Source: a virus
Length of the DNA: 64,000 nucleotides
Virus record (IMG/VR): IMGVR_UViG_3300045303_000182
Span: 1-64,000 of that record
Direction: 5' to 3' (one strand)
Shown here in pieces: positions 3,239 through 18,099 of this stretch (positions are counted from its first letter, which is position 1; the number at the start of each line of letters is the position of its first letter). The notes under the pieces are model-generated. The model was not told the origin of the DNA. It was given only the letters and a program-made list of their open reading frames with translations, and did not search any database. The position numbers and the translations under genes were made by a program.

Positions 3239-3252
3239 GGTATCGGGCTATG
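3239..3252. repeat. Dispersed 14-bp motif copy GGTATCGGGCTATG
   Basis: Contains the exact 11-bp core TATCGGGCTAT (3241-3251). It overlaps the stop codon of the leftward gene ending at 3248 and lies just upstream of the small membrane ORF that starts at 3230. Confidence 0.5.
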
Positions 3253-4654
3253 CCTCGGCCGAGTCGTGCTCGACCATGTCAGCGTCCTCGATGATGGTGT
3301 CGGACAGGACCGGCACCTCCAGCATCCGAGCGTTGTTGCCCGCCTCGGAGCCAAACAGGCGGCTGATCATGCCCATCGACCCGTCGGCATCCGGGCCGCT
3401 GGCGCTGATGCCGATGTTGAGCTTGGTGGTCTGCTCTTCGATCCGCTTCCAGCCCTCGACCATCTTGAAGAGGCGGTCCATCTCCACGCCGACCATCGCA
3501 TCGGGCTGGCCGTTGACCTGCTCAGCGAAGCTCCCCATCATGATCCGCTGGGTCTGAATCTCGACCAGCGTGCGGAGGAGGGCCTGGCGCTGGTCCTTGG
3601 TGCGGATCACGACTGGGATGTTGTAGGCGCAGGAGTTGCCAGGCTGGTAACTAGGGCACGCGGGGCCGAGCGCACACGTCGAGCACTGCCGCACGCTGCC
3701 GGCGACGCTCTCGATGGTCATGGGCTGCTCTATCTCGTTGCCCTGGTCGTCCTTGATGACCGGGGTGACGGTGCTCATGATGGGCAGAACGGCAGCCGCT
3801 TTGTGCCGTAGCGGAGAGACCGGGTTGGCAACTGTGACCGAGCCGTTCACCCCGTTCGCCGTGGTCGTGGAGGAGCCACTAGTAACTACGATCGGCTGCA
3901 CCTGAGGCGCTGGGACGTGTTCCAAGGCCCTGCCGGTGCTCAGGAAGCGCTCCATGGCGAGCCAGGAGAGCACGGCGAGCTTGGCCGTCTCCTTGGGGTC
4001 GTCCATCAGCACCGCGCTCACATCGGCACCAAGCTCTTCGATCTGCTCGGTGTACCGCTGGCGCTTGAGGTGCTTGTCGTCGCTGTTGAGCCGCACCATC
4101 CGGTTGCCGACCCACACCTGCGTCTCGCCGTGCTTCTGAGCAGCCCACCACGCCGAGGACACCAGGAGATCGAACTTGTCGATGCCCTTCGACCGGCCGG
4201 TCAGACCGCCGAGGGTGCTCATGCGTCCCATGGCGGCGCGCGCCTGGCGCACGGCCAGCCCGTTGTCCACCACAGCGTCGGGGAGCACGGTCCCGTCGTA
4301 GAGCTCAACGAAGTGCCGCAGGTTGCTCGCGTCGTGCCCGTCCCATATCGGCAGGAACATGATGTCGCTGTCGTTGAGCCACGTCTCGGTGGCCCAATCG
4401 AGCGGACCGACCACGGCTTCTGGCTCCGACGATGACCCGCTCAGTAGCTCCAGGAGGGGCGCTACGGGCGTGGAGGGGGAGTCAGCGTAGATGAGCCAGT
4501 CGAGGCCACTGAGGCGACTCTGTGCAGCCCAAGCTGCGTAGTCGCGGGTGTGTCGAGCGAGGTTGGCGACGGACACAGCAACACGTTCGACGCCGCAGGC
4601 TCGCAGCGTGTCGAGATGCGCTTGTGACTCAGCGCCAGCGAAGTAGATCTGCAT
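3248..4654 (-). CDS. Hypothetical protein with cysteine cluster, 468 aa
   Basis: The N-terminal 250 residues have an alternating alpha/beta pattern (MQIYFAGAESQAHLDTL, VAVSVANLARH, LDWLIYAD), possibly an enzyme-like fold. A Ser/Thr-rich linker near residues 255-275 leads to a C-terminal part. There CSTCALGPACPSYQPGNSC places four cysteines, likely a zinc or iron-sulphur site. An amphipathic helical region follows (TLVEIQTQRIMMGSFAEQ). I do not recognise a named family. It is leftward and separated by 6 bases from the upstream 739-residue protein, with which it probably works. Confidence 0.5.
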   Translation of the reverse strand: MQIYFAGAESQAHLDTLRACGVERVAVSVANLARHTRDYAAWAAQSRLSGLDWLIYADSPSTPVAPLLELLSGSSSEPEAVVGPLDWATETWLNDSDIMFLPIWDGHDASNLRHFVELYDGTVLPDAVVDNGLAVRQARAAMGRMSTLGGLTGRSKGIDKFDLLVSSAWWAAQKHGETQVWVGNRMVRLNSDDKHLKRQRYTEQIEELGADVSAVLMDDPKETAKLAVLSWLAMERFLSTGRALEHVPAPQVQPIVVTSGSSTTTANGVNGSVTVANPVSPLRHKAAAVLPIMSTVTPVIKDDQGNEIEQPMTIESVAGSVRQCSTCALGPACPSYQPGNSCAYNIPVVIRTKDQRQALLRTLVEIQTQRIMMGSFAEQVNGQPDAMVGVEMDRLFKMVEGWKRIEEQTTKLNIGISASGPDADGSMGMISRLFGSEAGNNARMLEVPVLSDTIIEDADMVEHDSAEA

Positions 4655-12398: not shown

Positions 12399-12587
12399 CT
12401 AGAGCACCAGCCAACCGAGGGCGACCAGGCACAGGCCCGCACTGATCAGCGTGGCGTAGAAGGTCTTCACCTGATAGGCGAACACTGCGGCGATGCCGAA
12501 CAGGATCGCTGCGATCAGGAAGAAGATGTCGGCAAGGTTGAGGTTGCCCTGGAAGATGCCGTCATCAACGGCAAGCAGTGTGTGCAT
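12399..12587 (-). CDS. Two-helix membrane protein, holin candidate, 62 aa
   Basis: AGGAGA lies before ATG 12587. Two hydrophobic helices, about residues 18-38 (LADIFFLIAAILFGIAAVFA) and 45-62 (YATLISAGLCLVALGWLVL), are joined by a short polar turn. The size, the helices and the position two genes downstream of the endolysin are compatible with a holin. The 13279-13557 protein is an equal candidate. Confidence 0.45.
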   Translation of the reverse strand: MHTLLAVDDGIFQGNLNLADIFFLIAAILFGIAAVFAYQVKTFYATLISAGLCLVALGWLVL

Positions 12588-12598
12588 TCGTATCTCCT

Positions 12599-13282
12599 TT
12601 AGTCGGCGGCACAGATCGTGACCAGAAGGTCTTGATCGACCGGTTGTCGTTGGTGTACTGAGATGGTTTCCAGATGGAAGCCCGTTTCACACACCGGGCC
12701 TGGCGGTCCTTCAGGGCCTACGGGACCGGTGGCTCCGGGTGTTCCTTGCAGACCAGCTTCCCCTTGTGGTCCCGTGGCCCCAGGTGCGCCGACCTCACCG
12801 GGTGGACCGGGTTGTCCTTGCTCACCGGCTGGCCCCACCGGTCCAGCGGGGCCTGTCTCTCCCGTTGCTCCTGGCGCTCCTGTAGCGCCCGCAGGCCCTG
12901 GCGCTCCGCTTCTTCCCGGCTCGCCTTGAGCACCTTGCCGACCAGGATTCCCACTGGGACCGACAGGGCCAGCCACACCAGCAGCCCCAGCACTACCCAC
13001 CGCACCCGTTTCACCCGTCAGCCCCTCCGGGCCTTGAGGCCCTGGTGGTCCTGGAGGCCCAGGTGGACCCTGCGGTCCGGGATCACCCTGCTGAGGGACA
13101 CTACTAGCTGGTATCGAGCTATCAGGGGGGATACCAGACGAAGGTGCTGTCGTTGAGCTCGAGCTCGAGGCCGGCGTAGTTGCCGGCGTGGCTGAGTCGG
13201 CCAGCGCTCCAGTGCTGACGAGGGTCAGCGCGCCAACCGCGGCGCAACAGGAGAGTGCGTAGAGCGGGGTGAACTGCTTCAC
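12599..13282 (-). CDS. Secreted collagen-like protein, 227 aa
   Basis: Residues 1-29 ([19 protein letters not shown]...) look like a signal peptide with a plausible cut near ALADSA. A Ser/Thr/Pro linker follows to about residue 65. About 120 residues of uninterrupted Gly-X-Y triplets follow ([16 protein letters not shown] and so on). A 30-residue end contains two cysteines ([14 protein letters not shown]). GTG 13282 is the only sensible start and overlaps the upstream gene by GTGA. Collagen-like repeats are common in phage fibres, but a signal peptide is unusual and suggests export from the infected cell. Confidence 0.65.
13110..13123. repeat. Dispersed 14-bp motif copy GGTATCGAGCTATC
   Basis: One mismatch to GGTATCGGGCTATC. 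It lies within the linker-coding part of the collagen-like gene. A second ATACC box follows 8 bp later. Confidence 0.45.
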
Positions 13283-13557
13283 GACGGCGGCTCTTCGTCT
13301 CTCTCACCGGGCCGCGTGGTCAGATCCTCGGGGCCACCCGTGGTGTTGGACGTTGCCTTGCCAGCGATCAGGCCGAGGAGGGCACCCAAGATGCCCGACA
13401 CCAGCGACGCCAGCGTGTTGGCGATGATGCCGGTGTCGGCGTCGGGGTTCTTGACCTCCACGATCAGGATCAGCACGCTCAGCCCGACGATGAAGAACGC
13501 CACGATGAACGTGAACGTGATGACCATGATCTCGATGACAGAGCGCCTCTTGAACAT
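13279..13557 (-). CDS. Membrane protein, holin candidate, 92 aa
   Basis: After a basic start ([10 protein letters not shown]) come two hydrophobic helices: [20 protein letters not shown] at about residues 10-33, and [20 protein letters not shown] at about 50-69. A charged, disordered tail follows (ERDEEPPS). The N-in hairpin topology, small size and position directly after the endolysin make it the best holin candidate, though similar proteins occur elsewhere. It overlaps the collagen-like gene by GTGA. Confidence 0.5.
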
Positions 13558-13587: not shown

Positions 13588-14391
13588 TCATCCGCCCGAG
13601 ACGTTGAGGATGTACTTCCACGTCTGTGGACCGACCCACGCGTCCTGGGTGAGGCCACCGTCACGCTGCATCCTCTTCACAGCGTCCTGCGAGCGCGGCC
13701 CGTAGTCGCCGTCGGGCTTGCCGCAGTCGTAGGCGGGGTCGCCAATCTGCTTGAAGTGACCCTGCGCGATCTGCTGGATCAAGTACACGTCACCGTTGCC
13801 GCGGAGTTGCTCCCGCTTGGCCGGTGTCACATCGTTCTTCTGAAGTTCCAAGGTGTAAGTCCCTCCTGCTGGTGGCGTGACGGGTGGCGGCGTGACGGGC
13901 GGTGGTGTGATGTTCGGCAGATCCCAGGTGTAGAGCGGCGGCGGCGACGTGGCGTAGCGCCGGCTGGCCGTGATCTCGGTCGGCTGGATGTGCCACGGCT
14001 CGTTGCCCACGTACTTGAACGTGCGGAAGCCGTAGGCCCCGCAGTGTGTCTCCATCCACGGCCACGACACGTTGGGCACGGTGTCGATGGCGAACGCCGT
14101 CGGGCTGTGCGGGTTGACAGGGCATGACTCATGCCAGGAGTTGCCAGGCTTGGCGAAGCCAGGCGGGGGAGGGTCAGGCTGCGTGCGCCAACCGGTACCG
14201 ACGCCAAGGTTGACGCCGACGGCGTATGCGTCGTGGATGAGCGCCCCGAACCGTCGCTGCACCTCCGGGTGGAGATGGTTGAAGGTCTTCTTGGCGCACA
14301 ACTGACCCCACGTCAGCATCGTGCCCATGCCCTGGGGACCGCCATCAGGAGGCCGCGCGTAGCCATACGGGAACAGCGGCTCGTCACTCAT
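13588..14391 (-). CDS. Endolysin: M15 peptidase plus peptidoglycan-binding domain, 267 aa
   Basis: Residues about 30-145 form an M15/VanY-type zinc peptidase. SWHESC...AFAIDTVP supplies the first His and the Asp, and EPWHIQP supplies the last His. A Pro-rich linker (PPPVTPPPVTPPAGG) leads to a C-terminal domain of about 75 residues with the PG_binding_1 pattern (GDYGPRSQDAVKRMQRDGG...WVGPQTWKYI). It should cut peptide cross-links of the host wall at the end of infection. Coupled by ATGA to the gene upstream, it is followed by membrane proteins that probably let it reach the wall. Confidence 0.8.
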   Translation of the reverse strand: MSDEPLFPYGYARPPDGGPQGMGTMLTWGQLCAKKTFNHLHPEVQRRFGALIHDAYAVGVNLGVGTGWRTQPDPPPPGFAKPGNSWHESCPVNPHSPTAFAIDTVPNVSWPWMETHCGAYGFRTFKYVGNEPWHIQPTEITASRRYATSPPPLYTWDLPNITPPPVTPPPVTPPAGGTYTLELQKNDVTPAKREQLRGNGDVYLIQQIAQGHFKQIGDPAYDCGKPDGDYGPRSQDAVKRMQRDGGLTQDAWVGPQTWKYILNVSGG

Positions 14392-15745: not shown

Positions 15746-16570
15746 CTAGACGAGCACCCACTCCTCGAGGTTGCGGGGCTGGCCGTTCTGCAGGGTCCGA
15801 GGGGTGCCGTTCTCCAGGAGGAAGGGCCGCAGGCTGGCGTTGCCGTAGGCGTAGGCGTTCCACCTGCCCCACGACGATGTGACAGTGGCAGCGATGGTCT
15901 TAACAGCGGTAGCCGAAGCTGTCCAAGTACCCCACGACGATGCGCTGAAGGCTGGGTGGACGACTGCTGCCGTAGAAGCAGCGTTCCACCTGCCCCAGGA
16001 CGTGGTGATGGAGACGTACTGCTGTGGTCGGTGGATGCCGGTCGCCTGAGCATCCCAGGTGCCCCACGACGATGTGACAGTGGCGACCTTGGTCGGGACT
16101 GCGCTCGCGGTAGCGATCCAGGTTTCCCACAACGTGTTGATGCTCACCGGGCGGTTGACGCTCGCAGATGCGGTCCACGCCCCTCCCCACGTTGTGACAA
16201 TCGTTGCCGGGTGTACCACTGCTGCGGAAGCGGTACCGGTCCACGCCCCCCAGTTGGTAGAGACGCTGGCGTACAGCCAGTGAGACGCCGAGCCTGTGGC
16301 GTTCCAAGTGCCCCAGTTGCTGCTGATCGTGGCAGCACGGACCGAGACACCGACGGCCGTGGCTGTCCACCTGCCCCAGTTGGTGTTGATGTAGCCCTCG
16401 ATCTTGTTGGCGAGAGCTATCGCCGTCCACGATCCCCAGTTGGTAGTGATCGTTGCGTTGGTCGCTCGGGTGGCAGTGGCTTGAGCGCCCCAACTCCACA
16501 GCGCCAGGCCCTGTGCGGACCACTCAGGCACCACCAACGCTGATGCGATGTTGCCAACTCCAGTGCTCAT
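15746..16570 (-). CDS. WGxW-repeat protein, 274 aa
   Basis: I start at ATG 16570 (MSTGVGNIASALVV). The body is about 11 repeats of roughly 20 residues, of the form TITTNWGxWTAxAxA plus a variable strand (TNWGSWTAIALA, TSSWGRWNAYAY). This pattern suggests a stacked beta structure. The C-terminus (RPFLLENGTPRTLQNGQPRNLEEWVLV) echoes the RTLE motif at the N-terminus of the 1092-residue repeat protein encoded at 57945-61223. It is probably part of a tail fibre or surface decoration. It overlaps the collagen/fibre-tip gene upstream by TGATG. Confidence 0.6.
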   Translation of the reverse strand: MSTGVGNIASALVVPEWSAQGLALWSWGAQATATRATNATITTNWGSWTAIALANKIEGYINTNWGRWTATAVGVSVRAATISSNWGTWNATGSASHWLYASVSTNWGAWTGTASAAVVHPATIVTTWGGAWTASASVNRPVSINTLWETWIATASAVPTKVATVTSSWGTWDAQATGIHRPQQYVSITTSWGRWNAASTAAVVHPAFSASSWGTWTASATAVKTIAATVTSSWGRWNAYAYGNASLRPFLLENGTPRTLQNGQPRNLEEWVLV

Positions 16571-16998
16571 CAGCCGCTCAGATCGCCAATGACCACCCAA
16601 GTGTTCGCAGCGATCTTCTTCGCAGTGGCTGCGCTGTACTGAGCGCGCAGTCTCAACCCCGGCGTGCCATTGACGATGGCTCCTCCACCAGGAGCAAACA
16701 TCGGTCGTCCAACACCGAGCCACAGGAAGTCCACCTCCGACCCGAGCACGAACGCTTGCGTGGCATCATCCGGCAGCATCACCGTGATCACAGCGGCGTT
16801 GGAGAGCGTGATCATCTGGTTCTCGTCGCTGAGGACCGGAGCGTACGTAGTGGCAGTGCTGGCCTTGACCGTGCGCCGCGGTCCTGCTGGTCCCTGCGCC
16901 CCCGTCGCCCCAGGGTCACCCTTCGGTCCGGGAGGACCAGGGGAGCCGACGGTGAGGTCCACCCACTGGCCGTTGACCTTGGCTCTCAGCACTCCCAT
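16570..16998 (-). CDS. Tail-fibre-like protein with short collagen stretch, 142 aa
   Basis: The N-terminus ALRAKVNGQWVDLTVG-type segment is followed by seven or eight Gly-X-Y triplets (GPPGPKGDPGATGAQG). A beta-rich domain ends in TWVVIGDLSG. The last 100 residues match the C-terminal part of the protein encoded at 63154-64000 in order and spacing (ITLSNAAVITVMLP, GSEVDFLW, AGGGAIVNG, ending WVVxGDL). The two are therefore paralogues. The likely role is receptor binding or fibre tip. It is coupled to the WGxW-repeat gene downstream. Confidence 0.6.
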   Translation of the reverse strand: MGVLRAKVNGQWVDLTVGSPGPPGPKGDPGATGAQGPAGPRRTVKASTATTYAPVLSDENQMITLSNAAVITVMLPDDATQAFVLGSEVDFLWLGVGRPMFAPGGGAIVNGTPGLRLRAQYSAATAKKIAANTWVVIGDLSG

Positions 16999-17799: not shown

Positions 17800-18099
17800 C
17801 TACCTCACGAACAGGTGGAAGGTCTGCGCCGTGATCTCCTCGTTCTGCTCGTTCATCACGTTGGTGAAGCCGATGTTGCAGCCGAGGTCGAGGCCCTGCG
17901 TGGCGACGAGGCCGCGCGCCACGGCGATGCCCTTGCACGCCTGGTTCACGGCACCTGCACCGACGGCGCGGACGATGGGCATCTTGTGCTCATCGAAGAT
18001 CGCGATGCGGATCGAGTTCGCCACCTGCTGCACGGGGGAGTTGGTACGCACCCGAATCGTGACCTCGTCCTGGTCAATCAGTACGTCCATTCGTGACAC
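17800..18099 (-). CDS. SpoVS-domain protein, 99 aa
   Basis: Residues about 12-99 follow the stage V sporulation protein S family closely. They contain VANSIRIAIFDEH, then the hallmark VRAVGAGAVNQACKGIAVARG (where the family has IGAGALNQAVKAIAIARG), then LVATQGLDLGCNIGFTNV. SpoVS is an Alba-like small protein linked to sporulation and division in bacteria. It is not a usual phage structural component. GTG 18099 is preferred (GGAG 8 bases before); ATG 18090 is the alternative. It lies at the border between the virion and DNA-metabolism genes. Confidence 0.75.
   Translation of the reverse strand: MSRMDVLIDQDEVTIRVRTNSPVQQVANSIRIAIFDEHKMPIVRAVGAGAVNQACKGIAVARGLVATQGLDLGCNIGFTNVMNEQNEEITAQTFHLFVR

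Follow-up and report, generated by a model that had tools for sequence, protein, structure and literature searches.

A collagen-like gene and an overlapping membrane-protein gene form a conserved pair in the virus DNA analyzed here (the window, 64,000 nucleotides of a 109,846-base virus contig with contractile-tail genes such as baseplate wedge and sheath). The pair is real, conserved and, within the literature searched, previously undescribed, and its arrangement, the hydrophobic N-terminus of the collagen-like protein, the repeats and the C-terminal cap recur across many contigs of uncultivated viruses. The pair is read tentatively, at somewhat less than an even chance for the statement as a whole, as a portable late two-gene module that would place an exported trimeric rod in the envelope of the infected cell, most likely as an accessory of lysis or release. 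The envelope location, taken by itself, is considered very probable.

The reading frame given in the initial annotation was recovered to the nucleotide, together with the Ser/Pro linker, which is also rich in Thr, and the two-cysteine cap at the chain end (Table 1); the "about 40" Gly-X-Y triplets were counted as 44, without interruption. Glycine occupies every third residue across these triplets, and shuffling the residues of the protein 10,000 times gave runs of 8 triplets at most. PF01391 (Collagen) matched at 79.9 bits (cut-off 27.2; E 1.2e-22), which assigns the protein to this family, and was the sole Pfam domain found. Rod length in Table 1 was computed with 0.286 nm per residue. The N-terminal segment holds one Lys, has a mean Kyte-Doolittle value of 1.78 over residues 10-28, and reads ALA/D at residues 26-29. 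Two cysteines lie outside this segment, both in the cap, and the C-terminus ends in TICAAD, with no LPXTG wall anchor. A second protein of the window (16570-16998, minus strand; 142 aa) has a short Gly-X-Y stretch, no export segment and a collagen match below the cut-off; it is a phage collagen of the usual fibre type and provides a contrast inside the same phage.

Table 1. Coordinates of the gene pair and its neighbors in the window
Feature	Position	Strand	Details
Collagen-like protein, putatively exported	12599..13282	-	227 aa; GTG start at 13282; stop 12599-12601 included
Residues 1-28, putative hydrophobic export segment ending ALA/D	13199..13282	-	N-terminal hydrophobicity in 40/40 gathered loci
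Residues 29-65, Ser/Pro/Thr-rich linker	13088..13198	-	
Residues 66-197, 44 uninterrupted Gly-X-Y triplets	12692..13087	-	~38 nm if triple-helical
Residues 198-227, two-cysteine HQRxPVDxD cap, predicted beta-hairpin	12602..12691	-	30 aa
GTGA overlap (4 bp), membrane gene stop and collagen gene start	13279..13282	-	
Two-helix membrane protein (92 aa), constant partner of the collagen gene	13279..13557	-	
Endolysin, peptidoglycan-binding domain and weak VanY/M15 match	13588..14391	-	PF01471 E 1.3e-9; PHROG endolysins
Membrane protein (62 aa), possible separate holin	12399..12587	-	no family match

An IMG/VR search with the endolysin returned 7 loci, four of which (L003, L005, L006, L008) carried a putative exported collagen ORF just downstream. 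A profile built from six membrane proteins returned 40 loci; 38 had downstream sequence, and in 31 of these a collagen ORF with an export segment directly followed the membrane gene. The seven without it (L013, L040, L043, L046-L049) comprised six of the weakest matches and one close match, L013, in which the partner (L013:5001-5276) is 67% identical to that of the window and is followed by no collagen gene. An independent search with the cap returned 19 loci, and L055, L056, L057, L059, L060 and L063 were new and had upstream sequence; the two-helix gene was present in L059, L060 and L063 with the same 4-bp overlap. Counts are given for the 40 gathered collagen loci, for 38 non-redundant loci (minus L026, a copy of L025, and L035, a copy of L034), or for 38 complete proteins (minus L011 and L032, whose contigs stop inside the collagen gene, just inside a hydrophobic N-terminus; L026 and L035 still included). 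L016, a copy of L015, was never among the 40. G+C content ranged from 0.41 to 0.74 across 13 loci.

Retention of the export signal by relatives, a check suggested in the initial annotation, was borne out by a hydrophobic N-terminus in all 40 gathered collagen proteins. This, with the two-cysteine cap and the membrane-gene overlap described below, supports the proposed export. A strict A-X-A follows the hydrophobic stretch in 20 of the 40, which speaks against signal peptide cleavage in every case; the segment may be cut or may serve as an anchor. Inspection by eye showed no lipobox in any of the 40 N-termini, and the window protein has ALA/D at that place. The first 12 residues contain 0-2 basic residues (30 proteins). 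Rod span, interruptions included, was 18-57 nm with a median of ~30 nm in a length table of 30 proteins, which leaves out L055-L057, L059, L060 and L063. Loss of the partner seemed at first to go with strongly basic N-termini (L055-L057); this correlation was given up, the start codons of these genes being uncertain.

The stop of the two-helix gene and the start of the collagen gene overlapped by exactly 4 bp in 31 of the 40 gathered loci, and in five further loci the script put the value at -1 to 16. The remaining four were L055 and L056 (no two-helix ORF), L057 (a different ORF) and L044, where the contig begins inside the partner, yet the same 4-bp overlap was visible on separate inspection. 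L055-L057 carry an Amidase_2-type gene and, instead of the two-helix partner, another ORF with a single helix; this ORF has a (V/I)REVRR or REIRR motif and, in the coordinates given by the script, runs into the start of the collagen gene, with start codons uncertain. In 20 virus records the membrane-protein profile matched once in 18 and not in the other 2. The partner was the sole small membrane ORF besides the collagen gene in 11 of 24 screened loci (L015, L017, L018, L024, L025, L031, L033, L037, L041, L060, L063), and extra small membrane ORFs stood beside it in the window, L006, L010, L012, L019, L020, L030, L039 and L059. Small ORFs resembling the 62-aa membrane protein of the window were seen by eye in L012, L047, L057 and L059. 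No Pfam family, holin families included, matched the partner over its cut-off; Holin-X (PF07332) reached 13.8 bits with the window partner (curated cut-off 28.4) and matched 2 of 23 family members at E <= 0.1.

A C...C cap closes 37 of the 38 complete proteins, and 36 have exactly two cysteines past residue 35, a placement that would be expected for a disulfide formed outside the cytoplasm. HQR is present in 27 of the 38 and an N[S/A/T]PGG turn in 7; in 24 aligned HQR caps, C10, H22, Q23, R24, P26 and C36 were invariant. An AlphaFold2 monomer model of the cap, with a mean pLDDT of 91, showed a beta-hairpin whose strands span 15-23 and 29-37. Because this model is of a monomer, trimerization of the collagen chains by the cap is put forward as a suggestion by analogy; the foldon of fibritin is a small trimerizing hairpin. 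The cap profile matched once in 17 of 20 virus records and not in the other 3. With no second occurrence, the cap is private to the collagen gene in those records and not common to tail fibres. In L031 (2323-3108) the same gene pair ends in a domain of ~100 aa without cysteines in place of the cap, so the end of the rod is exchangeable. No structure in PDB or BFVD matched that of the cap at E <= 0.001, a 39-residue hairpin being too small for such comparison, and the cap profile gave chance matches only against PDB sequences.

The window endolysin ends 30 bp before the two-helix gene, in agreement with placement of the collagen gene in a lysis region. A lytic enzyme was encoded on the same strand within ~2.1 kb of the pair in 21 of the 38 non-redundant loci. 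These enzymes belong to unrelated families, namely M15/PG-binding (window, L006, L010, L012, L018, L019, L030, L037, L039), PHROG endolysins (L011, L015, L020), Amidase_2 (L041, L055, L056, L057, L059, L060) and, downstream of the pair, M23 or M15_4 (L017, L028, L031). A lytic enzyme was found on the opposite strand in L032 and L034, and an unconfirmed candidate in L024, L025, L033, L036 and L063; L014, L021, L022, L023, L027, L029, L038, L042, L044 and L045 had none in the available stretch, which is short in some. Single-locus enzyme models (L011, L015, L020, L063) were not accepted as proof alone, and PHROGs confirmed L011, L015 and L020, not L063. The F7 enzyme model rests on L025 and L033, both without a family match, since the L024 sequence was entered out of frame. 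L055 and L057 were assigned to Amidase_2 with a local model; its members L041, L056 and L060 are Pfam-confirmed.

Two loci do not fit a lysis region. The pair of L014 lies among head genes, with Peptidase_S78 upstream and, downstream, an ORF that looks capsid-like by eye, and that of L029 also lies among head genes, with head-maturation PHROGs upstream; the L029 record has a PG-binding enzyme ~39 kb from the pair, near a 68-aa membrane ORF. In L038 and L042 the pair follows tail fibre genes. Because of L014 and L029, the pair is treated as a portable late module and not as strictly lytic, and the simpler proposal that it is the holin and accessory of a lysis cassette was weakened by the same two loci. 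The pair moves as a unit among late gene clusters and mostly, not always, adjoins lysis genes.

The record also encodes, outside the window, a Thr-rich protein of 490 aa (L051:8121-9590, minus strand; G000 92121-93590); its N-terminus is hydrophobic, and its C-terminus consists of LPPTG, a hydrophobic stretch and RKRRRA. PF00746 matched it at 23.1 bits (cut-off 20), the one match over the cut-off among 20 records searched, and it is predicted to be a phage-encoded, sortase-anchored surface protein. Because of this protein and a G+C content of 64%, the host would be Gram-positive and is probably actinobacterial. A WhiB regular expression found nothing in the fetched loci or the window. Other genes observed were a sporulation-protein-like gene (17800-18099, minus strand; phrog_35646, E 4.4e-18), a queuine tRNA-ribosyltransferase-like gene (3248-4654, minus strand; phrog_887, E 8e-21) and a 213-aa ORF (L051:4000-4638, plus strand) with a possible export segment, a Pro-rich linker and no Pfam match, resembling by eye an exported lytic enzyme.

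Relatives were also sought in 50,697 phage isolate records by tblastn. None was found with the whole collagen protein (most of the repeat being masked by the low-complexity filter), the 92-aa partner, an HQR-type cap, or the window endolysin and another large window ORF, and a PGG-type cap gave one unrelated match (E 5). Megablast of 24 kb of the window against the same records found no relative. In 84,980 bacterial genomes, one short pattern each returned 220 stretches for the cap and 60 for the partner, none confirmed. The phage and bacterial searches alike were of low sensitivity. In the literature searched (titles and abstract starts, with most subscription journals outside), no paper described a phage collagen that is exported and encoded in a lysis or late module, and the word collagen was absent from the accessible part of a Gordonia phage lysis survey (PMC9671378).

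For the preferred reading, the following sequence of events is proposed. The two-helix protein and the collagen-like protein would be co-translated, and the latter would enter the host membrane by its hydrophobic N-terminus, with rod and cap moved outside. Three chains would then form a triple helix, typically of ~30 nm, closed by a disulfide-bonded hairpin cap from which trimerization would start. The rod would stand in, or cross, the wall of the Gram-positive, probably actinobacterial, host next to its partner, and would act as infection ends, most likely by aiding disruption of membrane and wall and release of phage. The gene overlap, hydrophobic N-terminus, paired cysteines, hairpin cap, private distribution of the cap and lytic neighbors all favor this account, as do the wall-anchor protein of the same record and the median rod span of ~30 nm, which is close to how thick Gram-positive walls usually are. 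Against it are the 10 of 38 loci without a lytic enzyme in the available stretch, the two pairs among head genes, the distant L029 enzyme beside another small membrane ORF, the L013 partner without a collagen gene, L055-L057 without the two-helix partner, and the lack of an isolate with the pair within the search. A bolder form would make the pair a new class of phage envelope machine, carried as a cassette across unrelated phages: a trimeric rod of collagen, coupled to the membrane, would span the Gram-positive wall and, with its two-helix partner, break or prise the envelope open late. This form is rather unlikely to hold in full.

The initial annotation had suggested coating of the cell, binding of other phages or a change of the host surface. 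In the corresponding alternative, exported rods on the infected cell would keep other phages from adsorbing, or progeny from adsorbing to the dying host cell or to host debris. The export segment and cap, movement of the pair as a unit into several late-cluster sites, as accessory genes do, and the LPPTG wall-anchored protein of the same phage are compatible with such a coat or receptor mask, and superinfection exclusion is a role of Ltp-type surface lipoproteins that phages encode (PMC3952083). However, a small cap with strong conservation in phages of 41-74% GC is unlike a part matching strain-specific receptors; late gene placement would be late for exclusion; the low-sensitivity searches of bacterial genomes gave no relative and so no sign of prophage expression; and the LPXTG match exceeded the cut-off in one record of 20. 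This alternative is possible but unlikely, and late placement, mostly beside lytic enzymes, fits lysis or release somewhat better than coating, phage binding or surface change.

A part of the virion, a head or tail fibre anchored in the particle by the hydrophobic N-terminus, is more doubtful still. Known phage collagens (SPP1 gp12, EHEC prophage fibres, FibU) do sit in virions, and the L014 and L029 pairs lie among head genes and those of L038 and L042 after tail fibre genes, but the hydrophobic N-terminus is universal among the gathered proteins, the gene is coupled to that of a membrane protein, Pfam finds collagen and no particle-attachment domain, and the PHROGs tail matches of the window protein fall chiefly on the repeat region.

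Periplasmic RI of phage T4 regulates the T4 holin. That the two-helix protein is likewise a holin or antiholin whose timing the collagen protein sets from outside the membrane is the least probable reading, being consistent with the 4-bp overlap, the loci in which the partner is the sole small membrane ORF and the two-protein holin-like pairs described in F1 mycobacteriophages (PMC13056207), but countered by other small membrane ORFs adjoining the partner in nine loci including the window, the distance of the L029 pair from the PG-binding enzyme and the lack of a holin family match over the cut-off.

Phage collagens described in the literature searched sit in the particle. If the preferred reading, a late envelope module, is true, this conserved collagen, exported and matched with a membrane partner of its own, would indicate that collagen rods also work for phages in the envelope of the infected cell. 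It would then offer a definite candidate for a step at the level of the wall, during lysis or release, in hosts that are Gram-positive and probably actinobacterial, and a short cap open to testing as a collagen trimerization tag.

Among known collagens, SPP1 gp12 on the capsid (PMC6316719), the EPcl proteins of EHEC prophage fibres (PMC3368898) and FibU of S. aureus phage 80alpha (PMC9430571) share with the window protein phage-encoded Gly-X-Y rods and a capping domain; they are described as particle or fibre proteins, whereas the window protein starts with a putative export segment and is paired with the gene of a membrane protein. Streptococcal Scl1, a bacterial surface collagen (PMC5005324), resembles the putatively exported window protein as a collagen rod on a Gram-positive cell, and differs in that the window protein is phage-encoded, lacks a terminal LPXTG and ends in a short hairpin cap; as a candidate for a secretion signal of the Scl type, the window protein has a hydrophobic N-terminus with ALA/D, and strict A-X-A is found in 20 of the 40 gathered proteins. 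Spanins, described as overlapping small gene pairs, some beside terminase and not endolysin (PMC6139136, PMC7344957), are like the module in consisting of two small overlapping envelope genes sometimes placed away from the endolysin; unlike them, the module has no lipoprotein and no outer-membrane partner, and a collagen rod would replace the coiled coil or beta domain. LysZ of C. glutamicum phages CL31 and Cog has one helix and a proposed N-in/C-out topology, and its deletion gives small plaques (PMC13056207). Compared here by description, LysZ is not called collagen-like in the accessible part of that source. Like the collagen protein as proposed here, it is a lysis accessory of similar size (177 aa) with one membrane helix and its bulk outside, in a Gram-positive host. 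The window protein shows one hydrophobic stretch near its N-terminus, and the module would be like LysZ or a spanin in topology and probably like neither in sequence.
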